Shown one piece after another: positions 1,103 through 37,493 of a DNA stretch of 37,600 nt (within the stretch, counting starts at the first letter, position 1; the number at the start of each line of letters is the position of its first letter). Made by a program: the position numbers and the translations under genes. This stretch comes from Candidatus Methylumidiphilus alinenensis. Its GTDB lineage: Bacteria; Pseudomonadota; Gammaproteobacteria; Methylococcales; Methylococcaceae. The notes below the pieces were generated by a model that saw only the letters and a program-made list of their open reading frames with translations, had not been told where the DNA came from and made no database searches. Location of the stretch: positions 1-37,600 of the forward strand of contig QJPH01000359.1 in the NCBI GenBank assembly GCA_003242955.1, given 5' to 3'.

Positions 1103-1213
1103 TTAAGGCGATTTCCAAGAATGTTTACACCAAGTAGAAGCGGCTTCCAGCCGCTTAAAGCGGCAAGATGCCGCTTCTACTTTAGGTAGTTTATTTATCG
1201 AAAATCGCCTAAA
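1103..1213. mobile_element. MITE-like element, TTAGGYGATTT family, core 'AGAAGCGG' (copy 1)
   Basis: About 109 bp bounded by inverted ends (left TTAAGGCGATTTCC, right complement TTAGGCGATTTTCG) with a central hairpin of AGTAGAAGCGGC...GCCGCTTCTACT type. The same element lies in inverted orientation at 8882-8990, identical except for about two bases. No protein is encoded, so it would move only with a transposase supplied in trans. Confidence 0.75.
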
Positions 1214-1247
1214 AAGACAACCACTGCAAGCGAAATATCAAGATACC

Positions 1248-1276
1248 CTCCCGCAAGCCGAGGGGGACTTTTTATA
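1248..1276 (+). terminator. Weak terminator-like hairpin before the antiporter gene
   Basis: A short inverted repeat (CCCTC...GAGGG) is followed by GGACTTTTTAT. The stem is only five base pairs, so termination is uncertain. It lies between the EcsC gene and the cation antiporter gene. Confidence 0.25.
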
Positions 1277-1308
1277 AATACCTATGCCCTTATAAGGAGG
1301 GGAAATCA

Positions 1309-2415
1309 ATGCAAAGTTTTCTCAAACCCGGCATTAATTGGCTGGCAGTTTTTATTCCCGTCGCATTCGCAATTGCCTGGACACCCGGCCTGCACAATGA
1401 GTTGGCCCTGTTTGGCTGTTCCCTGCTCGGCATGATGGTGGTTTCCGCCTGGATAGGCGACGCGACGGAACAACTGGCGAAGCGCATAGGACCGACTTGG
1501 GGCGGGATGCTTAATGCGGCCTTTGGCAATTTGCCGGAACTTATTTTCGGCCTGATCGCCATTGGCAAAGGGCTGGGTCCGCTGGTCAAGGCTGCATGGA
1601 CGGGGGCCATCATCAGCAATTTGTTGGTGGTGATTGGCGCCGCCATGATAGCGGGAGGAGTGCGGCATGGCAACCTCAAATTCCACGTCGAACGCGCCAA
1701 CGATGCATCCACTTCCATGCTGATCGCCGCCGTGGCCGTGTTACTGCCTTCCATCTATGCACAGGCACACGGTATTTTGCAGGGCCAAGTCACAAGCGAT
1801 TTTGTCGAGGACATTTCGCTGTGGATTTCGGCGCTGCTGCTGACGGCCTATGTCGCGGGCATCATCCGCACTATCTTCGTATCCAAAGAGGAAGACGCGG
1901 TCAGGCGGCTAGAAAACCCCAACCCCCCTGACCCAATAGAGGATGCAGATGCCTGGTCCGTCAAACTAGCAGCGGGAGTACTGGCCGTAGCCAGTTTCCT
2001 GATCGCATTGCTGTCGGATTTTGTTTCGGACTCGGTGGATTCGGTCAAAACCAGTTTGGGCTGGACCGACTTGTTCATCGGTGTGATCGTCATTGCCTTG
2101 ATTGGTAACATGGCGGCCTTGTTCAGCGCAGTGAAGATGGCTAAAAAGAACCAAATGGACCTAAGTTTCGAGATCGGCATGAGTGCCGGATCGCAGATTT
2201 CGCTGCTGGTCGTCCCGGTTCTCGTCATCAGTTCGCGCTGGTTAGGGCATCCCGTCGATGCCCAGTTTTCCACTCCCGAGGTGGCATCCATCTTCGGCAC
2301 GATCTTAATTACCACCCAAATTGCCCAAGATGGACGGTCAAACTGGCTGAATGGCGTTCAGATGCTAATTCTCTATGCGATGATTGCCGTAATGTTCTTC
2401 TATCTGCCGGGTTAA
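1309..2415 (+). CDS. Ca2+/H+ antiporter of the CaCA (CAX) superfamily
   Basis: A 368-residue polytopic inner-membrane protein with about ten to eleven hydrophobic segments in two similar halves, the layout of CAX-type Ca2+/H+ exchangers, which export Ca2+ in exchange for protons. The first alpha-repeat is typical (FGNLPELIFGLIAIGKG, about residues 71-87, with the conserved GNxxE glutamate). The second repeat (IGNMAALFSAVKMAKKN, about 264-280, then SAGSQISLLVVPVLV) has Ala at the position where CAX proteins carry the second essential glutamate (GNxxE). That may change ion choice or activity. The ATG at 1309 has an excellent ribosome site (AAGGAGGGG). The gene seems to be transcribed alone, with a cold-shock gene following after 230 bases. 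Confidence 0.85.
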   Translation: MQSFLKPGINWLAVFIPVAFAIAWTPGLHNELALFGCSLLGMMVVSAWIGDATEQLAKRIGPTWGGMLNAAFGNLPELIFGLIAIGKGLGPLVKAAWTGAIISNLLVVIGAAMIAGGVRHGNLKFHVERANDASTSMLIAAVAVLLPSIYAQAHGILQGQVTSDFVEDISLWISALLLTAYVAGIIRTIFVSKEEDAVRRLENPNPPDPIEDADAWSVKLAAGVLAVASFLIALLSDFVSDSVDSVKTSLGWTDLFIGVIVIALIGNMAALFSAVKMAKKNQMDLSFEIGMSAGSQISLLVVPVLVISSRWLGHPVDAQFSTPEVASIFGTILITTQIAQDGRSNWLNGVQMLILYAMIAVMFFYLPG

Positions 2416-2572
2416 CACAATATTGCTGAATAAAGATTGACTTTCTAGTGAATTTACCGTATTGTATCTGTAGGTGTAAAGAGGTCCGCGCCAAGCAAGT
2501 CAGCGAAGTTTCTATTTGTAAAAAATACATTCCTGCTCCAACTGCCCGCCTTTCCGTAATACCCCGCTTTTC

Positions 2573-2599
2573 TTACAATAAACCCTTATAGGGTATATT
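2573..2599 (+). promoter_or_regulatory. Possible sigma-70 promoter of the cold-shock gene
   Basis: TTACAA and TATATT occur 15 bases apart and about 45 bases before the cold-shock start codon, followed by a small GCGCATTTCGCGC hairpin in the presumed leader. The spacing is shorter than ideal, so this is only a candidate. Confidence 0.3.
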
Positions 2600-2644
2600 G
2601 AAGTCACTGCGCATTTCGCGCTTATTTATCTTAAGAGATTTACT

Positions 2645-2854
2645 ATGTCACAGCAGCAAACCGGAACCGTTAAATGGTTCAACGAAGGCAAAGGATTTGG
2701 TTTTATTCAACGCGAAAATGGTGGCGACTTGTTCGTGCATTTTCGTTCAATTGTGGGCCAGGGATTTAAGTCCCTGACTGAAGGGCAACGCGTTAGCTTC
2801 ACCGAGGTAAGCGGTCAGAAAGGCCCACAAGCTGACAACGTTGTAGCCCTGTAG
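2645..2854 (+). CDS. Cold-shock domain protein (CspA family)
   Basis: A 69-residue single cold-shock domain with both nucleic-acid binding motifs: RNP1 (KGFGFI, residues 16-21) and RNP2 (DLFVHF, about 28-33). It opens with the family-typical [16 protein letters not shown]. Such proteins bind single-stranded RNA and DNA and melt RNA structure in the cytoplasm, in cold shock or in normal growth. Length is normal. A short leader with a small GC hairpin precedes it, as is common for csp genes, although thermosensing cannot be judged from this. An RRM protein gene follows 133 bases downstream on the same strand, so two RNA-binding proteins are side by side. Confidence 0.95.
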
Positions 2855-2987
2855 TTTCGCTTAAGTAAACGTCTAGGCCATAAAAGCAGGCCACTGGCAA
2901 TGTCTGCTTTTTGCCCTTCATCCGGGTACAATATTGTGCCGCATCGCCTTATTTCAATAGTGTTTTTTAATATAGGAGTGGCAACGC

Positions 2988-3251: not shown

Positions 3252-3310
3252 ATCCTCTCCAAAGCTTAGTCCGACAGCTTTATAGGCATGTTTAGGCTAG
3301 GTTCATAGAG

Positions 3311-3351
3311 GATAAGACCGACTCGGTTTAAAAAACCGAGTCGGTCTTATC
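3311..3351. terminator. Strong 19-bp hairpin (AAACCGAGTCGGTCTTATC), likely bidirectional terminator
   Basis: Perfect 19-bp stem (3311-3329 with 3333-3351) with a three-base loop, between the RRM gene and the mscS-type gene. The same 15-base core (AAACCGAGTCGGTCT and its complement) forms longer-looped hairpins at 13809-13873 and 26601-26664. Stem strength fits a terminator; recurrence marks it as a repeat family. Confidence 0.6.
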
Positions 3352-3419
3352 TTATCTGAAGAAATTGACGGGCAAGCAATTAAAACGCTACCCCACATCC
3401 CTATCTGAATCACTACCTG

Positions 3420-5820: not shown

Positions 5821-5916
5821 AATTTGTTGCAGCAATTCTCATTTTGAAAAAAGCCGGGCGGGTTTGGAACCCGCCCTTATTAATCTTTGCCAAAATGAGA
5901 ATTGCTGAATTTGTTG
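5821..5916. mobile_element. MITE-like element, TIR CAGCAATTCTCATTTTG, with 9-bp target duplication (copy 1)
   Basis: A 78-bp element (5830-5907) begins CAGCAATTCTCATTTTG and ends with the inverted copy CAAAATGAGAATTGCTG. It is flanked by exact 9-bp direct repeats AATTTGTTG (5821-5829 and 5908-5916), which shows insertion by a transposase. Its core is a 9-bp hairpin (GGGCGGGTT-TGG-AACCCGCCC, 5856-5876) followed by an AT-rich run, so it probably also terminates transcription of the mscS-type gene. Other copies with the same ends but different cores lie at 16734-16937 and 26549-26702. Confidence 0.85.
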
Positions 5917-8881: not shown

Positions 8882-8990
8882 TTAGGTGATTTTCGATAAA
8901 TAAACTACCTAAAGTAGAAGCGGCATCTTGCCGCTTTAAGCGGCTGGAAGCCGCTTCTACTTGGTATAAACATTCTTGGAAATCGCCTTA
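8882..8990. mobile_element. MITE-like element, TTAGGYGATTT family, core 'AGAAGCGG' (copy 2)
   Basis: Inverted, nearly identical copy of the element at 1103-1213 (about two differences in 109 bp). It ends six bases before the glgX stop codon and so lies at the convergent junction of ackA and glgX, where its GC-rich hairpin may end transcription from both sides. Confidence 0.78.
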
Positions 8991-13427: not shown

Positions 13428-13796
13428 ATGAGTTTATTAGGAAACATCCTCTGGCTGATTTTCGGCGGTTTGCTAACCGGCCTGGGTTATATCCTAGGCG
13501 GCATTGTATTGTGCCTGACCATTATCGGCATCCCCTTCGGTTTGCAGTCGATCAAACTGGGCTTTGCCGTGTTCGCACCGTTTGGCAAAAACCTAGTGGA
13601 ACTGGACAATGCCAACGGTGTATTAAACCTAGTCTTTAACGTCATCTGGTTGTTGCTGTTCGGCTGGCCCATCGCCGTGGCCCACGCAACCAGTGCCTTG
13701 ATTTTGGCGATCACGATCATCGGCATTCCATTTAGCATCCAACACCTCAAGCTGATCCCGTTGTCGTTATTCCCGTTCGGGCGGGATTTGGTGTAG
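13428..13796 (+). CDS. yccF: YccF-type inner membrane protein
   Basis: A 122-residue protein with two YccF repeats. Each has a long hydrophobic helix pair and the motif TIIGIPFG/S-x-Q (LTIIGIPFGLQSIKLGFAVFAPFGKNL at about 28-55 and ITIIGIPFSIQHLKLIPLSLFPFGRDL at about 95-120). Four membrane spans are expected. YccF proteins are inner-membrane proteins of unknown function, slightly longer in E. coli. The start has an AAGGTG ribosome site. It appears to be a single-gene unit, with a MITE-like element just upstream and a strong hairpin just downstream. Confidence 0.88.
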   Translation: MSLLGNILWLIFGGLLTGLGYILGGIVLCLTIIGIPFGLQSIKLGFAVFAPFGKNLVELDNANGVLNLVFNVIWLLLFGWPIAVAHATSALILAITIIGIPFSIQHLKLIPLSLFPFGRDLV

Positions 13797-13798
13797 GG

Positions 13799-13877
13799 CT
13801 AGGCGGCTAAACCGAGTCGGTCTCGAAGAGGTATCGTGAACCCCTGTGCAATCCAACGAGACCGACTCGGTTTTTCC
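13799..13877. repeat. AAACCGAGTCGGTCTCG hairpin after yccF (likely terminator)
   Basis: Perfect 17-bp inverted repeat (13809-13825 with 13857-13873), loop of 31 bases, followed by TTTTT. It begins two bases after the yccF stop. Flanking GGCGG...CCCGCC extends the symmetry. The same arms occur at 3311-3351 (loop of 3) and 26601-26664 (loop of 34) with unrelated loops. Confidence 0.6.
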
Positions 13878-13897
13878 CGCCAGTCCGGTCAAGTTTG

Positions 13898-14107: not shown

Positions 14108-14518
14108 CACTGTCATTAAGTTAAGCAAAAAACCGTGAAATTTGAGAAGATTACAAAGTTTGGAGTGCGCAATGGATAAAATGAACAGGCGGTGGAAACC
14201 AGCCGGACACTTATCATGGACGAGGCGTTCAAATGCCTCCACCGCTGGACGGGCCAAGCATTCACCCGTGTCCGCAGTCTGACTTTCGAACTCGTCCTGG
14301 TCATGGTTCTGCGGAAAAGCGTGAAGTCCTTGCAAAACGTCGTCAACGAGGCGATGTCCTGGCTGGGTGTCGGGACGGTGACTGCCAGCGCCTACTCGCA
14401 GGCGCGGTACAAGCTCAAGCACACCGCCTTTATCGAACTGAACCAGAAGGCGGTGGTCGCGACGATGTACGGCGACGGCGACTACAAGAGGTTCTGGGGC
14501 TTCCGCATCGTCGCTTGA
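14108..14518 (+). pseudogene. IS4-family insertion sequence remnant: left end and transposase N-terminal part
   Basis: The remnant begins with a probable terminal repeat, CACTGTCATTAAGTTAAG (14108-14125). From about 14192 a frame encodes METSRTLIMDEAFKCLHRWTG...RVRSLTFELVLVMVLRKS...NEAMSWLG...SAYSQARYKLKHTAFIELNQ...RFWGFRIVA, the N-terminal third of an IS4-type transposase. The frame stops at 14516-14518, just where such proteins continue to the first catalytic Asp, so the DDE catalytic core and the right end are missing. Sequence before the end (CGTTCCCACGCTCTACGT) is a palindrome-repeat half-site, a likely target. The terminal sequence differs by one base from that of the 145-bp elements at 16009-16153 and 21186-21330. 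Confidence 0.72.
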
Positions 14519-15986: not shown

Positions 15987-16257
15987 GGCTGGTTCCCAAG
16001 CTCTGCTTCACTTCCATTAAGTTAAGGTATTGCTGAGCCTGTTACCCCCTCTCCCCAACCCCTCCCCCCGAGGGGGGAGGGGCTTTTCTCCCCTCTCCCT
16101 TGCAGGGAGAGGGGCCGGGGGAGAGGGTCTTTTGGCTTAACTTAATGGCAGTGAAGCTCTGCTTGGGAACCCAGTCTTTGAAGCTCCAGCTTCTGTCGGG
16201 ATGGCAAGCTGGAGCTTATAAGGCAAAGGTTCCCAAACTGGAGTTTGGGAACCAGCC
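15987..16257. repeat. Palindromic host repeat GGCTGGTTCCCAAG...CTTGGGAACCAGCC interrupted by a MITE
   Basis: Inverted ends GGCTGGTTCCCAA (from 15987) and TTGGGAACCAGCC (to 16257) frame a repeat with several AAGCT-x-x-AGCTT palindromes. It is split by the 145-bp element at 16009-16153. Removing that element and one 11-bp duplication restores a palindrome GGTTCCCAAGCTCTGCTTGGGAACC. A related repeat lies at 21076-21353. Confidence 0.65.
15998..16164. mobile_element. IS4-like MITE with 11-bp target duplication (copy 1, C-rich core)
   Basis: The element (16009-16153, 145 bp) begins CACTTCCATTAAGTTAAG and ends with the inverted CTTAACTTAATGGCAGTG. It is flanked by exact direct repeats AAGCTCTGCTT (15998-16008 and 16154-16164), a duplication length typical of IS4-family transposases. 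The core is a C/G-rich double hairpin (CCCCTCCCCCCGAGGGGGGAGGGG and CCCTCTCCCTTGCAGGGAGAGGGG types). Confidence 0.88.
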
Positions 16258-16665: not shown

Positions 16666-16733
16666 TGACGCTTGGGTACTCGTTCTAAATTTCCAGTACT
16701 CACCGTTATACTCAAGTCGCTGCGGGAATTGCG

Positions 16734-16937
16734 AGCAATTCTCATTTTGGCTAGAACGTCGTCATTCCGGCAGGGATTGCCGGAATCCAGATGCCATGGA
16801 CGGCAACTCGACGCTCGCAAGTGTTTGATTCAAGGGATGTGCCAGCCCACAGCTTCACATCCCTGTGGACTGGATTCCGGCAATCCCTGCCGGAATGACG
16901 GACCACAGCGTCGTTATGGTTCAAAATGAGAATTGCT
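16734..16937. mobile_element. MITE-like element, TIR AGCAATTCTCATTTTGG, carrying a REP core (copy 2)
   Basis: Ends AGCAATTCTCATTTTGG (16734-16750) and CAAAATGAGAATTGCT (16922-16937) are inverted. The core is a complete REP-like element (16761-16899). No clear target duplication remains. The rest of the 439-base gap around it (16666-17104) holds only the repeat fragment at 16986-17019. Confidence 0.75.
16761..16899. repeat. REP-like element GTCATTCCGGCAGGG...CCCTGCCGGAATGAC
   Basis: 139 bp with long complementary arms (GTCATTCCGGCAGGGATTGC at the left, inverted at the right). Most similar to the copy at 30579-30718, including the internal GTGTTTGATT and CACATCCCTGTGGACTGG segments. Confidence 0.8.
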
Positions 16938-16985
16938 TCCCCCCGGCGTGAGCTGGCAACCCTACGGGTTACAGTAAACCGGCAT

Positions 16986-17391: not shown

Positions 17392-18960
17392 CTAAATGTG
17401 TTTCATCTTAATGTTCAAAATCCTCACCCGATAAGCAATCTGCCGAGGCGTCATGTTAAGAAGGCGGGCGGCTTTGGCCTGCACCCATCCGGCTTGTTCC
17501 AACGCGGCGATGACCTGTTCGCGCTCGTCCATGCCTTCCGTATTGAATTCGGACTTCGCGGTCACGGGTAATCCAAGGGACAGTTCATCCTCAATGCCGG
17601 TCAGCGCGATGGCTTCGCGGTCTATCATGCCTTCGGCACTCATGATGGCAGCCCGCTCCAAGGTGTTTTCCAACTCCCGCACATTGCCGGGCCAGTCGTG
17701 GCGCATCAGTATCCGTATCGCGCTCTCTTTGAGGGCCAGCGGACGGCCGCCTTGTTGTTTTGAAATGCGGGCCAGCAGGTATTCGGCAAGCTGGGGAATA
17801 TCCTCCAATCGTTCCCGCAACGGAGGCATGTTGATCGGCATGACATTGAGGCGGTAATATAAATCCTCGCGGAACTGGCCCTTCTCCACCGCTTCCTCCA
17901 AGTCGCGGTTAGTGGCTGCAATGATGCGCACACGCACTTTGAGGGTTTGAACGCCACCTACCCTTTCAAATTCGCCTTCTTGCAAAACCCGCAACAGTTT
18001 GGCTTGGAATGAGGCCGAGATTTCGCCGATCTCGTCAAGGAAAATTGTGCCTTGGTTGGCCAATTCAAAACGTCCCTTGCGCTGGTTTATAGCCCCTGAA
18101 AAAGCACCCTTTTCATGGCCGAACAGTTCGGACTCCAACAAATTGTCGGGCAGGGCGGCACAATTCAATTTGATAAAGGGTCCGCCGGCGCAGGCTGAGT
18201 GATAGTGGATGGCGTTGGCGATCACTTCCTTGCCGGTGCCCGATTCACCACGGATCAGCACAGTCGTGTTCCATTTTGCCACTTGGCGAACCAAGTCGAA
18301 CACCCGCAACATGGCGGGAGTGTGTCCAATGATGTTCTCAAAGCCGTAGTTTTTGCGCAGGCTTTGTTTAAGCTGGTCGCGCTCCTCGGTCAAGTCCCTT
18401 TGGCGTTGTTCCACGCCGCGCAGCATTTCCACACTTTGTGCGATCAGGTTGGCGACCATTTCTAAAAAACGGGAACGTTCGCCAAGCAGGTGCGCTTCTG
18501 CCGGTTGTGCGGCCAGTACACCCACCACTTCGTCCCCGCCGACGCGGATCGGTGCGCCAATAAAAGGCAGAGCGGGGTCGTAAAGGCCCAACTTGCCAAG
18601 GAAGCGCGGCTCATCGGCAATGCGTTCGACGACTATTGTGTAACCCTCGTCGAGAATAGTGCCAATCACCCCTTCCCCCGGCTCGTAACGGACCGGCTCC
18701 CGGTCGTCCGTGCCGCCGGTCCCTTGCCTGACCGAACAAACCACCAAAGCATCGGTGTTTTTTTCACGCAGCGCCAACATGCCGGAGCGCATACCCGCCC
18801 TTTCGTGCAGCACTTCCAGAACACCTTGGAGCTTGTCGCGAAGTTGCAAAGAGCTATTCAGCACACGGCTGACTTGATACAGGGCATCCAACTCTTGTTC
18901 AATCAGGCGGGTACGATCAGCCGTAGGCATAGGGTCTTTTTCCGCTGTTTTGTTGAGCAT
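17392..18960 (-). CDS. nifA: NifA, sigma-54-dependent activator of nitrogen fixation genes
   Basis: 522 residues, the usual length. An N-terminal GAF domain (about 20-185) is followed by the AAA+ domain with Walker A GESGTGKE (238-245), Walker B TIFLDEIGE (305-313) and the sigma-54 contact loop, here GAFSGA (285-290) rather than the usual GAFTGA. A C-terminal Fis-type helix-turn-helix (VIAALEQAGWVQAKAARLL...) binds TGT-N10-ACA sites. There is no cysteine cluster between the AAA+ and DNA-binding domains, so oxygen sensing should be done by NifL. The gene overlaps the nifL end by 44 bases from the first ATG (18960), or by 14 from the ATG at 18930; either implies translational coupling and balanced NifL:NifA levels. 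NifA should activate nifHDK and nifLA itself. Confidence 0.96.
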   Translation of the reverse strand: MLNKTAEKDPMPTADRTRLIEQELDALYQVSRVLNSSLQLRDKLQGVLEVLHERAGMRSGMLALREKNTDALVVCSVRQGTGGTDDREPVRYEPGEGVIGTILDEGYTIVVERIADEPRFLGKLGLYDPALPFIGAPIRVGGDEVVGVLAAQPAEAHLLGERSRFLEMVANLIAQSVEMLRGVEQRQRDLTEERDQLKQSLRKNYGFENIIGHTPAMLRVFDLVRQVAKWNTTVLIRGESGTGKEVIANAIHYHSACAGGPFIKLNCAALPDNLLESELFGHEKGAFSGAINQRKGRFELANQGTIFLDEIGEISASFQAKLLRVLQEGEFERVGGVQTLKVRVRIIAATNRDLEEAVEKGQFREDLYYRLNVMPINMPPLRERLEDIPQLAEYLLARISKQQGGRPLALKESAIRILMRHDWPGNVRELENTLERAAIMSAEGMIDREAIALTGIEDELSLGLPVTAKSEFNTEGMDEREQVIAALEQAGWVQAKAARLLNMTPRQIAYRVRILNIKMKHI

Positions 18961-20524
18961 GAGTTTGTAATTGAATATGGACCCGGCAACCTTGCCGGTA
19001 GGTAGGGTCGAAACGGATTAGCCCCAAGTGCTGGTTGATCACTTCCTGGACCATGGTCAGACCCATGCCGGAATGACGCCGTCCGCCACCACTTTTGGTT
19101 GAAAAGAAAGGTTCAAAGACCTTGACATGAAGGTTTTCAGGAATGCCGGGGCCGGTGTCTTCAATGCAGACGTGGACGGTTTCCTCATCAGGCCAAGTGG
19201 AAATGCGCAATTCCCTTTTCTGTACACCACTTTGGTTCATCGCGTCGATGGCATTTTCCATGACATGCTTGAACATCGCGCGCAAGAGGTTTTCCTGGCC
19301 CATGATCGAGGGCAATATCGGCGTGGGCTGCCAATCAATCACCACACCTGCGGCCAAAAGGCGCTGGGTAAGAAGGACAATGCACTCATGCAGGATTTGA
19401 TTGAGGTTGACCATGCTCGAAGCGATTTCATCGGTTTCGGGGATGCATTGTTTCAAGCGGTCTAGCGATTCTTCCCCGGCGGCAAGTATCTGTTCGAGGA
19501 TGTCTAGCAAAGCCGGGTTTTGCCGCTCCTCCCCGCGCCGCTCTAGCAAGGTCTTAGCCGCATTCAGCAGATTGATGGGCCCTTGGATGTGGTGCATCGC
19601 CCCGAGCAGGGTTTCCCTGAGGCTTTGAATTTTTTCCTCCTCCGCCATCAACGCCTTCAGTGCGTTGAAACGAATTTCCCCCTCGTTTTTCTTTTGCTGG
19701 GTTACATCATCCAAGGTCAGCAGAAGGTAGGTACGGGAAGTTTGCTTGAAAAACGCGTCCACGCCACCGCTATCGCGGCTGAACCAAGTTCCAGAGCAAG
19801 AGAACCAACGCGGCCCGTGCCGGCCCCCCCGGTCATAGCGGACTTCCCGGTTGCGGAACCCAAGGTTTTTCTCCTTTAGGATATCCCATTCTTTGCCCAT
19901 TTCTTCGCGTAATATTTGCATGAACATCTTAGAGGGTTCACGCAGGCCAAGGTCGCTGTCCATTTTTTTATAGGCTTGATTGTCCAGTACGATACAATCC
20001 GCCTCGTCCAATAAGAGAGTCGCCACCGGCATTGAATCGACCACCGTCTCAATCAGCAATTTTTGATCGACCACCTGTTGTTGCAATTGGTAAACTTCGG
20101 TGATATCCCGGTGCATGCCAATGTAATGAGTGGTTTCCCCCTGCAAATTCAAGATGGGGGCAATGGTCAAATCCGCTAGATAGGGATGTCCGTCGTGATG
20201 GCGGTTAAGCAATAGACCCTGCCAAGGAATTTGCTCCTCCAGTTTGCTCCAAAGTTCTTCGTAAACCTTTCGGGGTGTTCGACGGTCTGAAAGCATGGAT
20301 TGATTACATCCGATGCTCTCATTGGGTGCGTAACCGGTTATCTCTGTAAAGGCTTTGTTTACATAGACAATATTGGCCTTGCTATCGGTAATCGCGATGG
20401 CGATAGGGGCTTGCCGCACAGTTTCAGCGAACAAGCCTTGCGGGAACTTTTGTGTAGGGTGCAGGACTTCGCCACCGGAAGGATTTTCCGGCTCCATGGA
20501 AGGGGCGCTTTGGCTTTTTTTCAT
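18917..20524 (-). CDS. nifL: NifL, flavin PAS anti-activator of NifA
   Basis: 535 residues. PAS1 (about 30-145: APIAIAITDSKANIVYVNKAF...GYAPNES...LLLNRHHDGHPYLADLTIAPILN...GMHRDITE) closely follows the FAD-binding PAS of Azotobacter NifL. PAS2 is about 150-280. A linker with MHHIQGPINLL (about 310-320) corresponds to the histidine region. The C-terminal GHKL ATP-binding domain has HVMENAIDAM, DTGPGIP, FEPFFSTKS and GMGLTMV boxes. NifL is not known to phosphorylate NifA; it binds and inhibits it when oxidized or when fixed nitrogen is high (GlnK input). The start has an AGAGGCGG ribosome site and lies about 30 bases after the predicted start of transcription from the sigma-54 promoter. Confidence 0.95.
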   Translation of the reverse strand: MKKSQSAPSMEPENPSGGEVLHPTQKFPQGLFAETVRQAPIAIAITDSKANIVYVNKAFTEITGYAPNESIGCNQSMLSDRRTPRKVYEELWSKLEEQIPWQGLLLNRHHDGHPYLADLTIAPILNLQGETTHYIGMHRDITEVYQLQQQVVDQKLLIETVVDSMPVATLLLDEADCIVLDNQAYKKMDSDLGLREPSKMFMQILREEMGKEWDILKEKNLGFRNREVRYDRGGRHGPRWFSCSGTWFSRDSGGVDAFFKQTSRTYLLLTLDDVTQQKKNEGEIRFNALKALMAEEEKIQSLRETLLGAMHHIQGPINLLNAAKTLLERRGEERQNPALLDILEQILAAGEESLDRLKQCIPETDEIASSMVNLNQILHECIVLLTQRLLAAGVVIDWQPTPILPSIMGQENLLRAMFKHVMENAIDAMNQSGVQKRELRISTWPDEETVHVCIEDTGPGIPENLHVKVFEPFFSTKSGGGRRHSGMGLTMVQEVINQHLGLIRFDPTYRQGCRVHIQLQTHAQQNSGKRPYAYG

Positions 20525-21173: not shown

Positions 21174-21342
21174 AAGCTGGAGCTTCACTGCCATTAAGTT
21201 AAGAAAAAGCGCGTCGTTCCGGCAGGGATCGCCGGAACCTAGGCTCCATGGATGGTATAGATTGTCGGCATCCCTGCAATCTGGATTCCGGCGGCCCATG
21301 CCGGAATGACGGCTTAACTTAATGGCAGTGAAGCTGGAGCTT
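21174..21342. mobile_element. IS4-like MITE with 12-bp target duplication (copy 2, REP core)
   Basis: The element (21186-21330, 145 bp) begins CACTGCCATTAAGTTAAG and ends with its exact inverted copy CTTAACTTAATGGCAGTG. Exact direct repeats AAGCTGGAGCTT (21174-21185 and 21331-21342) flank it. The core is a REP-like element (21213-21310), unlike the C-rich core of the first copy. Confidence 0.9.
21213..21310. repeat. REP-like element inside the IS4-like MITE
   Basis: 98 bp, GTCGTTCCGGCAGGGATCG ... CCATGCCGGAATGAC. Closest to the copy at 28247-28345; both share CCTAGGCTCCATGGA and CATCCCTGCAATCTGGATTC. Confidence 0.75.
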
Positions 21343-26539: not shown

Positions 26540-26711
26540 AAAGAAAAACAGCAATTCTCATTTTGGCATGACTGGCTCATTTTAGGTGGCCTAGGCGGTC
26601 AAACCGAGTCGGTCTCGACGTTATATCCCTGACATTGGCACTGTCTCCAAGACCGACTCGGTTTTCTCCACCCTTCAGCTTCCGCCAAAATGAGAATTGC
26701 TGAAAGTAAAA
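26540..26711. mobile_element. MITE-like element, TIR CAGCAATTCTCATTTTGG, with AAACCGAGTCGGTCT core (copy 3)
   Basis: The element (26549-26702, 154 bp) has perfect 18-bp ends (CAGCAATTCTCATTTTGG and CCAAAATGAGAATTGCTG for 17 of 18). It is flanked by 9-bp repeats that match at eight of nine bases (AAAGAAAAA, AAAGTAAAA). Its core holds the hairpin with arms AAACCGAGTCGGTCT (26601-26615) and AGACCGACTCGGTTT (26650-26664). It separates hldE from the DUF47 gene and probably ends hldE transcription. Confidence 0.85.
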
Positions 26712-28201: not shown

Positions 28202-28381
28202 AAGATAACCTGATTAGGAAGATTTTTCAGCTAAACCCAAAACGTCGTCGTTCCGGCATGGATCGCCGGAACCTAGGCTCCATGGACGGCGCGGACTTTG
28301 GGGCATCCCTGCAATCTGGATTCCGGCGATCCCTGCCGGAATGACGGAATAGCAGAAGCATCTTCATAATTAGGTAAGATA
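28202..28381. mobile_element. MITE-like element, TIR ACCTGATTAGGAAGATT, with REP core (copy 1)
   Basis: The element (28208-28375, 168 bp) has imperfect inverted ends (ACCTGATTAGGAAGATT, complement of right end ACCTAATTATGAAGATG). It is flanked by exact 6-bp AAGATA repeats (28202-28207 and 28376-28381). A REP-like core occupies 28247-28345. It abuts the hldE start codon. Confidence 0.75.
28247..28345. repeat. REP-like element in the ACCTGATTA element
   Basis: 99 bp, GTCGTTCCGGCATGGATCG ... CCCTGCCGGAATGAC; near copy of 21213-21310, which lies in a different TIR family. Confidence 0.75.
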
Positions 28382-28565: not shown

Positions 28566-28732
28566 TTAAGGTGATTTCTGAGAAAGAACATCCCATCAAG
28601 AATCTGATCCGTAGGCAAAAAATACAGTCCACGAAAGGCACGAAAAACACGAACAAAAAGCATGTCTTGTTCGTGCCTTTCGTGTGTTTCGTGGACAATG
28701 CTTTTGGTAGATTCATTATTGTAAATGACCTA
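28566..28732. mobile_element. MITE-like element, TTAGGTGATTT family with a third core
   Basis: Left end TTAAGGTGATTTC, right end complement TTAGGTCATTTAC. The core is a long hairpin, GTCCACGAAAGGCACGAA (from 28627) with its complement ending at 28696. The ends match those at 1103, 8710 and 8882, but the core is different. Confidence 0.5.
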
Positions 28733-30431: not shown

Positions 30432-30539
30432 CCGCCTACGAGTGACGAGTTGTAGGGCGGATACAGGGATGTGATCCGCCGAATGCTGGCGAACACCAAC
30501 AACATTCGGCGGAACCCGTCCATGGTTCCGCCCTACGGA
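30432..30539. repeat. Nested palindrome (CGAGTTGTAGGGCGGA...TCCGCCCTACGGACTCG)
   Basis: Outer arms CGAGTTGTAGGGCGGA and TCCGCCCTACGGACTCG pair, with inner arms CCGCCGAATG and CATTCGGCGG. It directly precedes another TIR-bounded element. Noncoding. Confidence 0.55.
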
Positions 30540-30545: not shown

Positions 30546-30742
30546 GTTATACACAAATCCGGGCAAGCCGGAAAAGCCGTCATTCCGGCAGGGATTGCCG
30601 GAATCCAGAAGCCATGGAGGGCAAACTCGTCGCAGAGCAAGTGTTTGATTTTGATAATTTGCAGCCCACAGTTTCACATCCCTGTGGACTGGATTCCGGC
30701 AATCCTTGCCGGAATGACGTACTCCCTACACTTGTGTATAAC
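30546..30742. mobile_element. TIR-bounded element (GTTATACACAA) carrying a REP core
   Basis: Exact 11-bp inverted ends GTTATACACAA (30546-30556) and TTGTGTATAAC (30732-30742) enclose a complete REP-like element (30579-30718). No duplication seen. This is the fourth TIR family to hold the same kind of core. Confidence 0.55.
30579..30718. repeat. REP-like element
   Basis: 140 bp, GTCATTCCGGCAGGGATTGC ... CTTGCCGGAATGAC, near copy of 16761-16899 although the enclosing TIR differs. Confidence 0.78.
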
Positions 30743-30873
30743 GGCGAGCGCAGAGCGTGGGAACGATACAAATCAGGTATCGCTATCGTCGAACACAATC
30801 CCAGTCTACTCGATTGCTTTACCGTCAATTTGTCAACCTGGACATTGCAATATCACCCATTACTCACGCTTTT

Positions 30874-30989
30874 ACGTTGCGTCGTTGCGCCGTTGCGTGA
30901 AACCTTCTTTTGCCTTTCTCGCAATGCGGCATGCCATTCAATGGGCGAAGATTTTTTTTGTCTCACGCAACGGCGCAACGACGCAACGT
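30874..30989. repeat. Perfect 27-bp inverted repeat with 62-base spacer
   Basis: Arms at 30874-30900 (ACGTTGCGTCGTTGCG...) and 30963-30989 are exact complements. Related to the arms at 29323-29394. Within the 690-base gene-free stretch between the HAD gene and nifK. Confidence 0.7.
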
Positions 30990-31011
30990 TAAGAGCAAAG
31001 CAAAATCTACA

Positions 31012-31057: not shown

Positions 31058-32629
31058 TTACCGTACCAAGTCGTAGTTATAGTCCGTCGTCCCCATGCCA
31101 CGGGTTTCGTCGTCCAACCGTTCCAGCACCGCGTTGACGATGGTGGTCAGCAGGTACATGGCCCCTTCGTAGCCTAGCGTAGTCTGGCGATGCAGATGAT
31201 GCCGGTCGAAGATCGGGAAGCCTATGCGGATCAATGGCACCTCAAACTCCTGGCCTTTGTACAAGGTGTCGCGTTGGATGAACTTGCCGTAGGAGTTGCC
31301 GATCATGAAATCCGGCTTGTTGGTGAACACCAGCGAACGCATGTGCCACAGGTCGCGACCAATATGGACTTCGCAACCAGCACCGAAGGGCGATGCCTTC
31401 AGGATTTCTTCCACCGCCTTCTTCCACCGCTTGTTGGCATGGTGGCAGAGGATGTGGGTCGGCTCCGCGCCCAATTCCAGCAGGAACTTGACCATCCCCA
31501 TCACAAAGTCGGCATCCCCCCACAGCGCGAACTTCTTGCCGTGCAACCAGGCGTGAGAGTCGGTAATCATGTCCACCAAACGACCGCGTTCGACTTCCAA
31601 CGAGGCAGGAATCGGCTTGCCAGTGATTTCGGATATCTTCATCAGGAAGGCATCGGTCCATTCCAAGCCCATCGGGATGTTCAGCTTGGGCACGTCGTGC
31701 TTCCAAGTACCCTCGACGAGCTTCTTGGTCTTCTCCAACTGCCAAGGCTGCAACAGGATAGTGTCGTAGGCATTGGGCGCGTCCTTGATTTCGTCCTGGG
31801 TGGTGCCGCCCGCATACATGCGGAACTGACCGTCAGCGGGGGTGTCCAGCACTTCGGTAGGATCGCTCAACAGGGTATGCGGCACACCCATCTCGTTCAG
31901 CATGCGATGGATCACGCGGAAGTTGCCCAGATACGTTTCAAAACCCGGCACCAGATTGAGCTTGCCATTTTTACCCGGTTCTTTGCCCTCCATGGTGTTG
32001 AGGGTGAAGTAGCGGGCAATGCCTTCGAACATGTTGTCCCAACCCGTGGTGTGGCTACCGACGAAGCTCGGCGTGTGGGCGAAGGGGGTCGGGAATTCCT
32101 GCGCGATATGGCCTTCCTTCTTGGCATTGTTGATAAAGGCATTCAAGTCGTCGCCGATGACTTCCGCCATACAGGTGGTGGAAACCGCGATCATGTCTGG
32201 CTTGTATAACGCTTTGGCGTTTTCCAGGCCATCAAACATGTTCTTTTGACCGCCGAACACCGCCGCGTCCTCGGTCATGGAATCCGACACACAGGCAATC
32301 GGTTCTTTGAAATGGCGGTTGAAATAGGTGCGGAAGTAGGCGACGCAGCCTTGCGATCCATGCACATACGGCAGGGTCTTTTCGAAGCCCAGTGCACACA
32401 GCACCGCGCCTAAGGGTTGGCAGGCTTTCGCCGGGTTGATGGTCAGCGCTTCACGATTGAAGTTCAACTCCTTGTACTCCTGACTGGTGGTCCACTGGAA
32501 CACTTCGTCGATCTTTTCCTGGGGAAAGCGCTCTTCGTATAAATCTCGTTTGAGGGCTAAGTTATCCTTGTATTCTTGGTCGCGAAACAAGGGATAGCTG
32601 GGTTTGATGTTTTCTACTGCTTGGCTCAT
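31058..32629 (-). CDS. nifK: Nitrogenase molybdenum-iron protein beta chain
   Basis: 523 residues, the usual length for the Azotobacter/Klebsiella type. The P-cluster cysteines are present: NPAKACQPLGAVLCALGFEK (first), VHGSQGCVAYFRTYFNRHFKEP (second) and VSTTCMAEVIGDDL (third), with the Ser-containing FANTPSFVG-like segment AHTPSFVGSHTTGWDNM following. NifK pairs with NifD as the alpha2-beta2 MoFe protein that reduces N2 to ammonia. The ATG has a strong AGGAGG site. A dispersed palindromic repeat sits in the 165-base gap to nifD. No nif gene follows downstream; the next gene is convergent. Confidence 0.98.
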   Translation of the reverse strand: MSQAVENIKPSYPLFRDQEYKDNLALKRDLYEERFPQEKIDEVFQWTTSQEYKELNFNREALTINPAKACQPLGAVLCALGFEKTLPYVHGSQGCVAYFRTYFNRHFKEPIACVSDSMTEDAAVFGGQKNMFDGLENAKALYKPDMIAVSTTCMAEVIGDDLNAFINNAKKEGHIAQEFPTPFAHTPSFVGSHTTGWDNMFEGIARYFTLNTMEGKEPGKNGKLNLVPGFETYLGNFRVIHRMLNEMGVPHTLLSDPTEVLDTPADGQFRMYAGGTTQDEIKDAPNAYDTILLQPWQLEKTKKLVEGTWKHDVPKLNIPMGLEWTDAFLMKISEITGKPIPASLEVERGRLVDMITDSHAWLHGKKFALWGDADFVMGMVKFLLELGAEPTHILCHHANKRWKKAVEEILKASPFGAGCEVHIGRDLWHMRSLVFTNKPDFMIGNSYGKFIQRDTLYKGQEFEVPLIRIGFPIFDRHHLHRQTTLGYEGAMYLLTTIVNAVLERLDDETRGMGTTDYNYDLVR

Positions 32630-32687
32630 GGTGTCCTCCTAGCCGCCACTAATCTGTGGACAAGGCTATGGTTGGTAATTTGTTTCA

Positions 32688-32787
32688 TCGTCCCCACGCT
32701 CGGCGTGGGAATGTTGCCTTTGACGCTCTATGCCGGGTGCGCCACGCTGATGCCTCCGACTAGGTTCCCACGCAGAACGTGGGAACC
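32688..32787. repeat. Dispersed palindromic repeat between nifD and nifK
   Basis: Arms CGTCCCCACGCTCGGCGTGGGAA and GGTTCCCACGCAGAACGTGGGAACC are themselves palindromes of the GTTCCCACGC family, with partial copies at about 14090 and 30750. It lies inside the operon transcript. Confidence 0.6.
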
Positions 32788-32794
32788 ATTCAAT

Positions 32795-34282
32795 TTAGCC
32801 TCCTGCCGCAGCGCGGACTGGTTCTTCTTTGGCTACCGCCTTCTTCCAAGGCGCTTGGATTTTATTCCAGCAAGGGTTGTTGATGGTCATGTCCATATCG
32901 CGGGCGAAGATGGCAAAACCGTCATAGCCGTGGTAAGGACCTGAGTAATCCCAAGAGTGCATCTGGCGAAAAGGCACACCCATCTTCTGGAAGATGTATT
33001 TTTCCTTGACACCGGAGCCGATCAGATCAGGTTTGATCTTCTTGACGAATTCCTCAAACTCATAGCCGGTCACGTCATCATAGAGCAGCGTGGCGTTGCC
33101 CATTTCCTTGATGGTGCGGTCATAGTCGTCGTTGTGGGCGAATTCGTAGCCCGTGCCGACCACTTCCATGCCTAAGTCCTCGTAAGCGCCGATGACATGG
33201 CGCGGACGCAGGCCACCGATGAACAGCATGACTTTCTTGCCTTCCAGCCGTGGCTTGTACTTGGCGATTACCGCCTCGTATTCGGCTTTGTAGCGTTCGA
33301 TGACACGCTCCGCTCCGGCCTTGATGGTGTCGTCGAATTGCTCGGCGATTTTGCGCAAGGACTCGGCGATCTTGGTCGGCCCGAAGAAGTTGTATTCCAT
33401 CCACGGCACAGAGTACTTCTCCTCCATGTGACGGGCGATGTAGTTCATTGATCGGTAGCAATGGATCAGGTTGAGCTTGACCTTCGGGGTCAGTTCCATC
33501 TCCGACAACGTGCCGTCGCCGGACCACTGGGCCACCACGCGCAAGCCCATCTCTTCCAGCAAAGTGCGCGAAGACCAGGCATCGCCTCCGATGTTGTAAT
33601 CACCAATCACAGCCACGTCGTAAGGGGTGGTCACGAAGCTGTTGTCGCCGTCGCGGGCGCTGATCACATAGTCGCGTATCGCGTCATTGGCAAGATGGTG
33701 GCCTAAAGACTGGGACACGCCACGGAAACCCTCGCAACGCACCGGAATGACCGGTTTGCCGAGTTCCTTCGAGGCTTTCTTGGAGACCGCTTCGATATCG
33801 TCGCCGATCAGGCCGATGGGGCATTCGGACTGTACGGAAATGCCTTTGTTGAGTGGGAACAGGGTGTCAATTTCCCCGATCAGCTTGGCCAGCTTCTTGT
33901 CTCCGCCAAACACAATGTCCTTCTCTTGAAAATCCGACGTGAAGTTCATCGTCACGAAAGCATTCACGCCAGTGGTGCCGATGTAGTAGTTGCGACGGCC
34001 AGCGCGTGAATACTGGCCGCAGCCAACCGGTCCGTGGGAAATGTGGATCATATCTTTGATCGGTCCCCACACCACGCCTCTGGAGCCGGCGTAGGCGCAA
34101 CCGCGGATAGTCATCACCCCAGGCAGCGATTTGCGGTTGGAGGTGATGCACTTGCTGGATTTTTCAATCGACTGGTCATTGACCGCCAAATGCTTGGCAC
34201 GGTCTTTCTTGGCTTTGTCGGGATAAACCTCTAGAACCTCTTGGATGAGGGCCTCTGTTTGCTCGCGAGTCATGGCTGTCAT
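32795..34282 (-). CDS. nifD: Nitrogenase molybdenum-iron protein alpha chain
   Basis: 495 residues. P-cluster cysteines lie in [34 protein letters not shown] and [18 protein letters not shown]. FeMo-cofactor ligands are the Cys in [12 protein letters not shown] and the His in [19 protein letters not shown]. These match NifD rather than VnfD or AnfD; the length and lack of a delta subunit gene agree. It forms the catalytic MoFe protein with NifK. The first ATG (34282) has an AGGAGG site seven bases away. It is 101 bases from nifH, with a hairpin between, and 165 from nifK. Confidence 0.98.
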
Positions 34283-34300
34283 AAATGCCTCCTGAATTGA

Positions 34301-34372
34301 GTGGCTAGTAGTTAGTGGCTAGTGGCTAGTGAATGGCAGCGGACAATTATTGTCCGCTAGCCACTAACCACT
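34301..34372 (-). promoter_or_regulatory. Hairpin and short tandem repeats between nifH and nifD
   Basis: Tandem units of AGTGGCTAG(T) at 34300-34330 pair with CTAGCCACTAACCACT (34357-34372); inside is a tight stem AGCGGACAAT / ATTGTCCGCT (34338-34358). A structure here could stabilise nifH mRNA and reduce read-through, giving more NifH than NifDK. Confidence 0.55.
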
Positions 34373-34383
34373 CACCACCGTTC

Positions 34384-35355
<972 letters not shown>

Positions 35356-35404
35356 TCACATTGTTTATATTGAGTAAGATGGCTGATAAATCACCAATTG
35401 CCTA

Positions 35405-35420
35405 TGTAACGAGTCAGACA
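35405..35420. promoter_or_regulatory. NifA upstream activating site of nifHDK
   Basis: TGTAACGAGTCAGACA fits TGT-N10-ACA, centred about 100 bases upstream of the predicted start. Less symmetric than the nifLA site. Confidence 0.8.
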
Positions 35421-35449
35421 ATCACCTCGCCTCGGGGTGTTTATTCGAC

Positions 35450-35471
35450 AAAAAATCGCAAGCGATTTTTT
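35450..35471. terminator. Bidirectional terminator-like hairpin AAAAAATCGC-AA-GCGATTTTTT
   Basis: Perfect 10-bp stem with a two-base gap, ending in T-run on either strand. It lies just upstream of the NifA site of nifHDK and could insulate the promoter from transcription coming from the right. Confidence 0.5.
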
Positions 35472-35511
35472 AAAGTTGGATGGACCCGCTAGGGCAAAAC
35501 GGGAATTGCAC

Positions 35512-35595
35512 CGGGAGTGCAAGGCTTGCCTTGCCTGCACAATTACCTCGCAAGGCAAGCCTTGCACTCCCGCAGCACTTTTCATTGCACACCCT
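35512..35595. repeat. Perfect 23-bp hairpin (CGGGAGTGCAAGGCTTGCC...) with tail shared with 16986-17019
   Basis: Arms 35512-35534 and 35550-35572 are exact complements with a 15-base loop. The right arm continues into a segment also seen near 17.0 kb. Confidence 0.65.
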
Positions 35596-35636
35596 CTAAC
35601 AGAATCATTACCAAAAGCTTGTGGTAACATAGCCTA

Positions 35637-35822
35637 ACCTGATTAGCAAGATTGTTCAGCCAATTCGTAACACCTAGCCGTATTCGTCATTCCGGCAGGG
35701 ATTGCCGGAATCCAGTCGCCATGGAGGGCAATCTCGATTCACCTCCCTGTGTTCTGGATGCCGGCAATCCCTGCCGGTATGACGCGCTGGCCGGTTTAGC
35801 CGAAGAATCTTCGTAATCAGGT
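35637..35822. mobile_element. MITE-like element, TIR ACCTGATTAGCAAGATT, with REP core (copy 2)
   Basis: 186 bp, left end ACCTGATTAGCAAGATTGTT, right end complement ACCTGATTACGAAGATTCTT, so 17 of 20 bases match. A REP-like core occupies 35686-35783. No target duplication seen, in contrast to the copy at 28208. Lies 50 bases before nagZ. Confidence 0.7.
35686..35783. repeat. REP-like element before nagZ
   Basis: 98 bp, GTCATTCCGGCAGGGATTGC ... CCCTGCCGGTATGAC. Confidence 0.72.
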
Positions 35823-35874
35823 ATCTATATACCTATGTTTCAAACACACCCTACAATAATATAAGAGCTTACCA

Positions 35875-36951
35875 ATGCCCTTAGGACCCGTCATGCTGGA
35901 TGTGGCTAGCACTGAACTAACTGCCGAAGACCGTGAACTGTTAATGCACCCTGCGGTGGGCGGGGTTATCCTATTTGCCAGGAATTACCATGACCCACAG
36001 CAGCTTGCTGCGTTGACGAGCTCCATCCGTGCGTTGAAGGAACCCCATTTGTTGATTGCGGTGGACCAGGAAGGGGGGCGGGTGCAACGTTTCCGTGATG
36101 GCTTCAAGCGGTTGCCACCGGCGGGTTATTATGGGAGCCTACACCGACAAGCACCGGAAACAGCCCAAAGGGCCGCGAAGTTGATGGGCTGGTTGATGGC
36201 ATCCGAACTGCAAGCCGTCGGCATTGATTTCAGCTTTGCGCCCGTTCTGGATATTGACCGGGGCATTTGCCGAGCCATCGGCGACCGGGCTTTCAGTCAT
36301 GATGTACAGACGGTGACAGGACTGGGCTTGGCTTGGATGCAGGGCGCAAGGCTCGCTGGCATGGCCTCGGTTGGCAAGCATTTCCCAGGGCATGGCGGTG
36401 TGTCGATAGACTCCCATCTGGGCTTGCCACATGATGAACGCAGTTTTGAAACCTTGTTGCAGGAAGATATTGCACCTTTTCAAGCACTGGTCAATCAGGG
36501 CTTGGAAGCCATCATGCCTGCCCACGTCGTGTATCCGGCAGTGGACGAAGCCCCTGCCGGTTTTTCACCGCGCTGGTTGAGGGAAATATTGCGCGGTCGC
36601 ATGGGATTCGCAGGGGTTATCATCAGTGATGCGCTGGATATGGCCGCCGCCGCGACCGTCGGCAATGATGTAGATCGGTCCAAAGCCGCACTGGCCGCCG
36701 GTTGCGATCTGTTGCTGGTCTGCAATAACCGTGCTGCCGCGATACAGGTTGTGGAAAGCTTGAGTGATTACTCTGACCCGGCTGCGCAGTCACGCTTGTC
36801 GCGCCTGTACAGCCGCCACTTCACCACTCACGCCCAGTTACAGCAAAATCCCTACTGGAATGAAGCCAATGCAGTGCTTGGGGTGTTTGAAGCTGCCGAA
36901 GACACAAATCTGGCTTATGACCCCACAACACGCGGCGGGACAGTCGTGTAG
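35875..36951 (+). CDS. nagZ: Beta-N-acetylhexosaminidase NagZ (peptidoglycan recycling)
   Basis: 358 residues, GH3 family, near normal length. NagZ marks: GVILFARNYHDPQQLAAL, LIAVDQEGGRVQRFRDGF, the catalytic His loop SVGKHFPGHGGVSIDSH (about 165-181) and the nucleophile Asp in GVIISDALDMAAAA (about 250). It removes N-acetylglucosamine from 1,6-anhydro-muropeptides in the cytoplasm during cell-wall recycling and can indirectly control beta-lactamase induction. There is no signal peptide, as expected. The start codon follows a weak AAGAG site. The C-terminal tail (about 30 residues) is low in conserved features. It seems to be transcribed alone. Confidence 0.94.
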   Translation: MPLGPVMLDVASTELTAEDRELLMHPAVGGVILFARNYHDPQQLAALTSSIRALKEPHLLIAVDQEGGRVQRFRDGFKRLPPAGYYGSLHRQAPETAQRAAKLMGWLMASELQAVGIDFSFAPVLDIDRGICRAIGDRAFSHDVQTVTGLGLAWMQGARLAGMASVGKHFPGHGGVSIDSHLGLPHDERSFETLLQEDIAPFQALVNQGLEAIMPAHVVYPAVDEAPAGFSPRWLREILRGRMGFAGVIISDALDMAAAATVGNDVDRSKAALAAGCDLLLVCNNRAAAIQVVESLSDYSDPAAQSRLSRLYSRHFTTHAQLQQNPYWNEANAVLGVFEAAEDTNLAYDPTTRGGTVV

Positions 36952-37004
36952 CCGGGTTTAGAACTATACTGACCAAGTCATTCCAACATTGACCAATTGA
37001 TTGC

Positions 37005-37406
37005 TTGATAACCACGAAGATATCGGCTGACCACTGGTTCTCATTTCTTGGAGCGCTTAAATCGTCAAAGTGGTTAGTGCTCGTTATGTCGCCACGATCT
37101 ACGGCATCGGAGTGGGTAAAAGATGAAATCTCATGGGCAATAAATAACATACCCGACCGCATTATACCTGTTTTGATAGAAGATTGTCAGCCTATAGACT
37201 TTCATATTCGTATTCCACGACTTCAATATATTGATTTTAAATATAATATCCAGAAAGCACGTGAAGATCTCATAAAACTTTTAGTGAGCTCGGAGTACAA
37301 ACCGTACGTTGGCGATATAGGGCACCCTGACCCACTTCGTGAACTCAGACACCGGTTTTGGAAACCAATTATACAGCATTTTCAACATCAAAGAGTTACT
37401 TGGTAG
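37005..37406 (+). pseudogene. 5'-truncated TIR-domain gene, 3' end inside a MITE-like element
   Basis: About 133 residues from a TTG that follows an in-frame stop at 36990-36992. The sequence matches the second half of a bacterial TIR domain: DHWFSFLGALKSSKWLVLVMSPRSTASEWVKDEISWAI...RIIPVLIEDCQPIDFHIRIPRLQYIDF. The first strand and loop (DVFISYS-type) and the catalytic region before it are missing, and no start with a ribosome site is seen. From 37374 the frame reads into an inserted element and stops at 37406. GC content is lower than in nagZ. TIR proteins of this kind act in antiphage signalling or NAD+ cleavage; this copy lacks parts needed for that. Confidence 0.7.
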
Positions 37407-37493
37407 TGGGTATGATAGCACAGGTTATTCGGTTAACCTGAAGGTTTAACGGAATGTCTGTTTTAGGTATATTTTTAAGATGAAAATGCTGTA
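37372..37493. mobile_element. MITE-like element, TIR CAGCATTTTCA flanked by TA (copy 2)
   Basis: The element (37374-37491, 118 bp) begins CAGCATTTTCA, ends TGAAAATGCTG (exact inverted 11 bp) and is flanked by TA on both sides. Its core has a small hairpin CAGGTTA...TAACCTG (37421-37440). It interrupts the 3' part of the TIR-domain gene. The remaining bases to the window end hold no further feature I can support. Confidence 0.6.

Follow-up and report, generated by a model that had tools for sequence, protein, structure and literature searches.

Insertion-sequence ends and palindromic cores in several combinations among the small mobile elements of Candidatus Methylumidiphilus alinenensis

In REPINs (repetitive extragenic palindromic [REP] doublets forming hairpins) of the GTAG type, which come with RAYT (REP-associated tyrosine) transposases, two inverted REPs make up one unit. 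Paired inverted REPs likewise act as a unit in the 37,600-nucleotide stretch of Candidatus Methylumidiphilus alinenensis, an uncultured methane oxidiser, analysed here (contig QJPH01000359.1 of assembly GCA_003242955.1, positions 1 to 37,600; "the window"), where they form some of the cores of miniature inverted-repeat transposable elements (MITEs). These REPs belong to the CGTC class, which in PMC3733652 has the same CGTC tag, palindrome and dimers and is likewise without a dedicated transposase. The CGTC-1 dimers of H. neapolitanus are reported there to lie inside one fixed 41-bp palindrome, an arrangement that resembles one of those found here; this outer palindrome is treated as an insertion target, and the associations, by the paper's own statement, are not studied in detail. 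Unlike the CGTC REPs of that account, one dimer core is found here within six types of end, several of them with target duplications.

Bacterial MITEs as reviewed in PMC10969869 share with our elements their shortness, terminal inverted repeats (TIRs), target duplications and, in the case of the end family that we call B, ends that match those of insertion sequences (IS); the interiors of ours differ in being exchangeable palindrome pairs common to several end families. Insertion of IS into REP hairpins, including that of the IS4-family ISRm22, is already known, and the end families B and F resemble such IS in inserting at hairpin centres (PMC1525189). Unlike in that system, the palindrome here is also cargo, and B and F target a different hairpin. 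A search at title and abstract level, which left most subscription papers outside, found no description of exchangeable end and core modules. We propose that these MITEs are built of two such modules, IS ends on the outside and a palindromic core on the inside, and we put the probability of this reading at about 0.65.

End families, target duplications and cores

The draft genome that contains the window (G000) comprises 6.57 Mb in 597 contigs, the window being its contig C28. Ends were counted across this genome with up to two mismatches for A (CAGCAATTCTCATTTTG), B (CACTGCCATTAAGTTAAG) and C (ACCTGATTANGAAGATT), and by exact match for D (TWAGGYGATTTYC; end consensus GGYGATTTYC), with the identical patterns read backwards as the control. 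A, B, C and D were matched 317, 277, 105 and 118 times, respectively, versus 1, 0, 1 and 1 times for the backward patterns. The end motifs are therefore far above chance, and the possibility that the ends named in a preliminary description of the window are no better than chance can be set aside. Among 61 genomes searched with at most one mismatch, A ends occur in all seven of the same genus (4-238 matches each); outside the genus matches are few, at most 9, in 7 of 54 genomes.

Elements were analysed in a sample of 74 segments of G000 (1.574 Mb), chosen around matches and hence enriched, which contains 65 A, 53 B, 22 C and 46 D paired, short, TIR-bounded elements. Target duplications were scored with at most one mismatch allowed from 8 bp and at most two from 11 bp. 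A 9-bp duplication is present in 31 of the 65 A elements (another length in 2), one of 11-13 bp in 39 of the 53 B elements, and TWA in 43 of the 46 D elements; for the F family, a 10-bp duplication with at most two mismatches occurs in 13 of 28, the chance being about 0.0004 each. Furthermore, duplications accompany several different cores (B-REPIN 19/22, B-CCAAGC 13/17, A-CGGGTT 19/34, A-REPIN 7/14), which supports the movement of ends and core as one unit. The elements are MITEs, and the ends behave as those of different transposases would.

The B ends appear to be of IS4 type. The window holds a putative IS4-type transposase fragment (NF033592, E 2.4e-6; PF13006, E 0.015; both below the curated cut-offs of these full-length models), and in three same-genus drafts (G001, G003, G006) the left end of a B-type IS lies within hairpin arms resembling the ones around the MITEs. 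An IS with both B ends in G026, which belongs to another genus, carries a 427-aa transposase frame; it sits in a CCCC..GGGG hairpin and is flanked by an 11-bp duplication (CGGCAGAGCCG). The B, E and G ends resemble one another, perhaps because they are related. A seventh end, typified by the element at 37370 of the window, has 82 end matches and 20 listed pairs in the sample, two of which share one right end; by eye, the interiors of this family look related, except for C20:26174 with its extra insert.

End and core labels are threshold-dependent. Motif labels were used for both, given that blast clustering of interiors merged A and B via composites and that single-linkage clustering of REPIN flanks merged A, B and F. 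The cross-table below relies on a strict REPIN pattern, a looser one having mis-tagged 8 B-CCAAGC, 2 D-CCAAGC and 1 A element, and REPINs less than 70 nt from a segment end were excluded from the table of ends. A GTAGGAGC tag on A-CGGGTT elements was a pattern artefact, the A-CGGGTT total being 28 + 6.

A ends (65): CGGGTT 34, REPIN 14, CCGAGTCGG 6, GTACGC 1, composites 3, no known core 7
B ends (53): REPIN 22, CCAAGC 17, TTCGACAGG 3, CCCTCTCC 2, GTAGCCCGG 2, AAGGCTTGCC 2, AAGGCTTGCC and GTAGCCCGG together 2, GTAGGAGC 1, none 2
C ends (22): REPIN 19, no known core 3
D ends (46): CCAAGC 34, AAGCGGC 4, CACGAA 4, CCCCTTTTGC 3, none 1

At least 4, 7 and 4 unrelated palindromic cores are thus enclosed by A, B and D ends, respectively, in these 1.57 Mb, and the CCAAGC palindrome is common to B and D. 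At loci of relatives, 17 of 24 B elements hold cores known from G000, and the other 7 hold palindromes that, judged by eye, are of three additional types (GGAGTGCAAGATTTATCTTGC, CCGGCTTTAGCCGG and GTGGGAGCCGCG). Hence the claim that one set of ends can enclose unrelated cores extends beyond the window for A, B and D, and a strict tie of each TIR to one core is not seen: these three ends have several cores, and the REPIN has several ends. Not every family is modular, however, as C elements contain either a REPIN or no known core. Where unrelated cores occur with one set of ends, what the elements have in common mostly stops at, or shortly after, the terminal repeat; such cores therefore look like separate captures. 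An A spacer (GTCAAAGCCCCGT) found before two different cores is a single weak case.

Several cores (REPIN, CGGGTT, AAGGCTTGCC, GTAGCCCGG) are also frequent, and sharply bordered, outside these ends; for others, end-free matches are few (CCCTCTCC 3, GTAGGAGC 4, CCGAGTCGG 4), and the core of the D element at 1107 has none. With one representative per core class and our own shuffle routine, the folding energy lies well below that of shuffles in 16 of 19 cores (z <= -3.3), while 1 of 60 random 110-mers falls below -4.

The window elements named in the preliminary description were found at about the places given there. They and their neighbours are listed below, with no strand assigned except for the relic; the four D elements carry three core types.

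5830-5907: A-ended MITE with GGGCGGGTT core (CGGGTT hairpin, 78 bp short form); 9-bp duplication AATTTGTTG
16733-16938: A-ended MITE with CGTC REPIN core (16760-16900); one mismatch per end, no duplication seen
26549-26702: A-ended MITE with AAACCGAGTCGG core, labelled CCGAGTCGG palindrome pair; duplication AAAGAAAAA/AAAGTAAAA
15998-16164: B-ended MITE (16009-16153) with C-rich hairpin core, including the 11-bp duplication AAGCTCTGCTT on both sides; inside a GGTTCCC..GGGAACC hairpin
21174-21342: B-ended MITE (21186-21330) with CGTC REPIN core (21212-21311); 12-bp duplication AAGCTGGAGCTT; inside a GGTTCCC..GGGAACC hairpin
14108-14518, + strand: putative relic of the parental IS of B; B end 14108-14125, truncated IS4-type transposase frame 14192-14518 (the below-cut-off matches)
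28208-28375: C-ended MITE with CGTC REPIN core (28246-28346); flanked by the 6-bp repeat AAGATA
35637-35822: C-ended MITE with CGTC REPIN core (35685-35784); spacers differ from those of the element at 28208
1107-1209: D-ended MITE with AAGCGGC core; duplication TAA
8713-8877: D-ended MITE with CCAAGC core; duplication TTA
8885-8987: D-ended MITE with AAGCGGC core; duplication TTA; reversed copy of 1107-1209, 98% identical to 1104-1212
28570-28730: D-ended MITE with CACGAA-type core; duplication TAA
30540-30748: F-ended element (CGTTATACACAAGT) with CGTC REPIN core (30578-30719); left end decayed
37370-37495: element with the seventh end type (TATACAGCATTTTCA), without a REPIN; end matches and pairs in the sample

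REPIN cores under several ends

The sample contains 122 strict REPIN dimers, each with the CGTC tag, the hairpin and the inverted dimer. Of these, 110 have a recognised end (A, B, C, E, F or G) on one or both sides, whereas only 77 of 3000 random flanks are labelled as an end; the REP-like core therefore does sit in several TIR families, as had been described. The remaining 12 REPINs have no known end, five of them belonging to one array on C25. This small number, and the array, argue against REPINs being mobile in themselves and inserting into MITEs. An 88-bp C element without a REPIN (C32:28295) matches the full element C42:21071 with the gap between two CG dinucleotides, as such an insertion would leave it, and five Y1-type transposase matches exist in G000; the 88-bp element, however, may be a deletion, and within about 1.5 kb on each side of the five Y1 loci no pair of CGTC REPs is found, such as would be expected of a REPIN/RAYT system, one locus having a single CGTC REP match. 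We therefore regard self-mobile REPINs as quite improbable.

Both ends are recognised in 82 REPINs, 71 of which have like ends and 11 unlike ends (A-C 1, A-E 1, A-F 3, B-E 1, B-F 3, C-G 1, F-G 1). The mixed-ended copies have family-typical spacers on 19 of 22 sides. Unlike ends in 11 of 82 cases point to exchange through the shared core. The mix-and-match of ends and cores claimed for the window is thus upheld in part: mixing occurs mainly between sub-lineages, while most copies keep ends and core together. By eye, the B-REPIN spacer seems to resemble an IS end up to the CGT that it shares with the REPIN start, which is suggestive only. Core orientation was considered as a further line of evidence, and was dropped, since it could be assigned in just 82 of 144 REPINs, including 6 mixed ones, too small a number to be of use.

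False mixed ends could also arise if short reads from the halves of different repeats were joined in assembly. The cores, at 100-209 nt, are near short-read lengths, the draft is fragmented and partly contaminated (see below), and many contigs of G006 end near a B or A end, so that joining errors may underlie the 11 mixed copies in part or entirely. They cannot, however, yield whole, like-ended elements with one duplication around different cores, which make up the bulk of the evidence, and the same combinations recur in other drafts of the genus. As an explanation of the whole pattern, assembly artefact is in our view very improbable. For one mixed copy, E-REPIN-B at C8:7401, the two flanks have their matches on separate contigs of G004, and the right flank is unmatched in the other drafts among the matches listed. 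As a separate observation, the assembly of G006 breaks at these elements: in many of its contigs (for example C76, C88 and C130, at 124-140) the distance between the contig end and an A or B end is about 124 bases.

To follow the cores independently of their ends, trees were built from two sets. In a tree of 61 cores (REPINs of 90-112 nt from the sample), each of two deep clades contains B, C and G ends; B, C and G require 4, 8 and 7 end changes, at least 2, 3 and 5 of these being imposed by well-supported branches. G labels cluster no more than shuffled ones (189 of 500 shuffles as low), and B and C labels do cluster (0 of 500). Spacers of 7-8 and of 1 nt occur with B ends in both core clades. 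A second tree of 86 cores from six genomes was restricted to REPINs of 92-108 nt; cores whose ends are unlike, missing, or of the A or F family were excluded, identical rows of one genome and end were merged, and E was pooled with G. Here, 16 end changes are required for three end families, against a minimum of 2, with 3, 4 and 4 forced for B, G and C, and the labels of the six genomes likewise need 16 changes (minimum 5). Core trees are thus decoupled from ends, meaning that ends and cores have partly separate histories. Together with the mixed ends, this supports exchange between REPIN-bearing families, one of the two origins considered in the preliminary description; given that labels are clustered overall, such exchange would be occasional.

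The draft G005 has no B end at one mismatch or less. Of 20 REPINs fetched from it, 13 carry G at both ends, 2 carry E and G, 4 have one G end and 1 has C ends, so that at least one G (or E/G) end is found on 19. Its lone C-ended core is placed with the G-ended ones from that draft, by a branch (87/81) that is not one of the best-supported.

It is also conceivable that these are ordinary MITE subfamilies only, in which each end/core pair was born once from its IS and then copied, with REPINs caught several times and no exchange. The 71 like-ended REPINs, the little that unrelated cores share past the terminal repeat and the clustering of end labels on the core trees would all fit. Such subfamilies do not readily account for the 11 mixed-ended copies, nor for 16 crossings between families by core variants in spite of family-specific spacer lengths (for B, 7-8 and 1 nt in both clades), and we consider this account unlikely.

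A number of observations nevertheless weigh against the two-module reading. (I) As regards mixed ends, weak labels (4-5 mismatches) underlie 2 of the 11 mixed copies, only 1 of 22 REPINs at relatives' loci is mixed, and the mixed copies may be assembly joins, as the draft has 597 contigs and a reported contamination of 4.4%; all compared genomes are drafts as well. (II) As regards core histories, both trees rest on 100 columns with few well-supported forks and an unsettled bootstrap, end labels remain clustered (0 of 200 shuffles as low on the 86-core tree), and the letters of the B-REPIN spacer largely track the core clade, so that two old captures are possible for B alone. (III) As regards the elements themselves, only 4 of 22 C elements show some duplication, and 3 of 19 representative cores fail to fold as palindromes (z about -1.1). 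(IV) No parental IS of A was found: of the frames next to A ends in G013 and G059, three were compared with Pfam and one with NCBIfam, with no match in either.

Hairpin targets and nested insertions

When the empty sites were rebuilt, stem scores of at least 7 were obtained for 28/53 B and 17/28 F sites, and for 1/65 A, 0/22 C, 0/46 D and 21/5000 random sites; at a score of at least 9, the counts are 19 for B, 9 for F, 0 for A, C and D, and 3 for random sites. Insertion into hairpin loops is thus strong for B and F, and weak or absent for A, C and D. The hairpin targeted by B and F is GTTCCCA(C/A)GCT..AGC(G/T)TGGGAAC. Five nested insertions with duplications were read directly in the sample:

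B in an A-REPIN core: duplication AGTGCCATGGAT
B in an A element: duplication GTGGGTTAGGT
A in a CGGGTT hairpin: duplication GGGTTCCAA
A in a B-CCAAGC core: duplication CTTGGCATC
E in an A-CGGGTT hairpin: duplication GGTTCCAACCC/GGTTCCAAACC

Repeated entry into hairpin centres, the other origin proposed earlier, accordingly takes place with two of the end families. Could it alone mimic swapped cores? The loop targeting by B and F and the five nested insertions are what it would predict; A, C and D, however, do not target hairpins, and in most elements with unrelated cores the new core is not bracketed by the two halves of a previous one, little being shared past the terminal repeat. The data thus do not support nesting as the source of the end/core mix, and of all the alternatives we give nesting alone the least credence.

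Between species, coding matches of the same-genus drafts are about 70-84% identical (best rows) and the intergenic elements remain unaligned, so that the order of arrival cannot be read site by site. A stack of elements is present at C69:22197-22566 (L235 18197-18566), in which an A-CCGAGTCGG unit is followed by a B-CCAAGC unit whose core contains an A-CGGGTT unit with a 9-bp duplication. At two loci of G005 (L346, L356), G-ended REPINs adjoin CCCCTCCCCCTGGCAGGGGGAGGG hairpins, with the 11-bp repeat AGGGTTAGGGT on both sides; G, too, may prefer hairpins.

Proposed origin of the elements, and other features of the window

In the two-module reading, the outer module would be a short pair of IS ends (A, B, C, D, E/G or F), between which any enclosed DNA could be moved by a predicted transposase acting in trans, and the inner module would mostly be a palindrome pair, of a kind that in most cases is also dispersed without these ends. 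Three processes would then act: (I) IS ends come to enclose a new palindrome pair, giving rise to a new MITE, as may have happened repeatedly in A, B and D; (II) families with the same REPIN core exchange core variants through that core, presumably by homologous recombination or gene conversion, and unlike ends sometimes result; (III) B, F and at least one E copy enter hairpin loops, producing nested layers. Each successful end/core pair would afterwards be copied as a unit. As to the first capture of a palindrome, our guess is abortive gap repair or template switching at hairpins.

We also suggest, tentatively and with somewhat more doubt than belief, that CGTC REP dimers persist as shared cargo, wrapped by about six types of IS end, recombined between families via the core and mobilised by any transposase that happens to be active. 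Palindromes might be favoured as cargo because the hairpin or cruciform fold of a core of about 100 bp would bring the short ends together, which stiff linear DNA of equal length hardly can; any palindrome pair between IS ends could then become a MITE. That the CGTC REPs look like cargo of several transposases would offer a testable answer to what moves them, a question left open in PMC3733652, and suggests a way in which a repeat that is common in bacteria and for which no dedicated enzyme is known could be spread. Moreover, if a MITE consists of two separately inherited modules, family names based on ends and those based on the interior would give conflicting histories. Hairpin cores are perhaps kept for their fold and not their letters, which could help to explain the palindromic small repeats of bacteria.

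Frames at 31058-35274 and 17392-20524 of the window resemble what we take to be nitrogenase genes and a NifA/NifL-like pair. The nearest relatives of the presumed NifL-like protein are 79-85% identical and occur in four uncultured Methylococcaceae metagenome-assembled genomes (4 of 9 loci found). The window also contains AAACCGAGTCGG-type palindrome pairs without A ends (13796-13886 and 3302-3360), and further inverted pairs of the AAGGCTTGCC type (35504-35580), a B core elsewhere in G000, and of the GTAGGGCGG type (30452-30536). Finally, an inverted repeat of ACGTTGCGTCGTTGCGCCGTTGCGTGA lies at 30871-30992, and the same motif is found inside an A-ended stretch at C1:38196.

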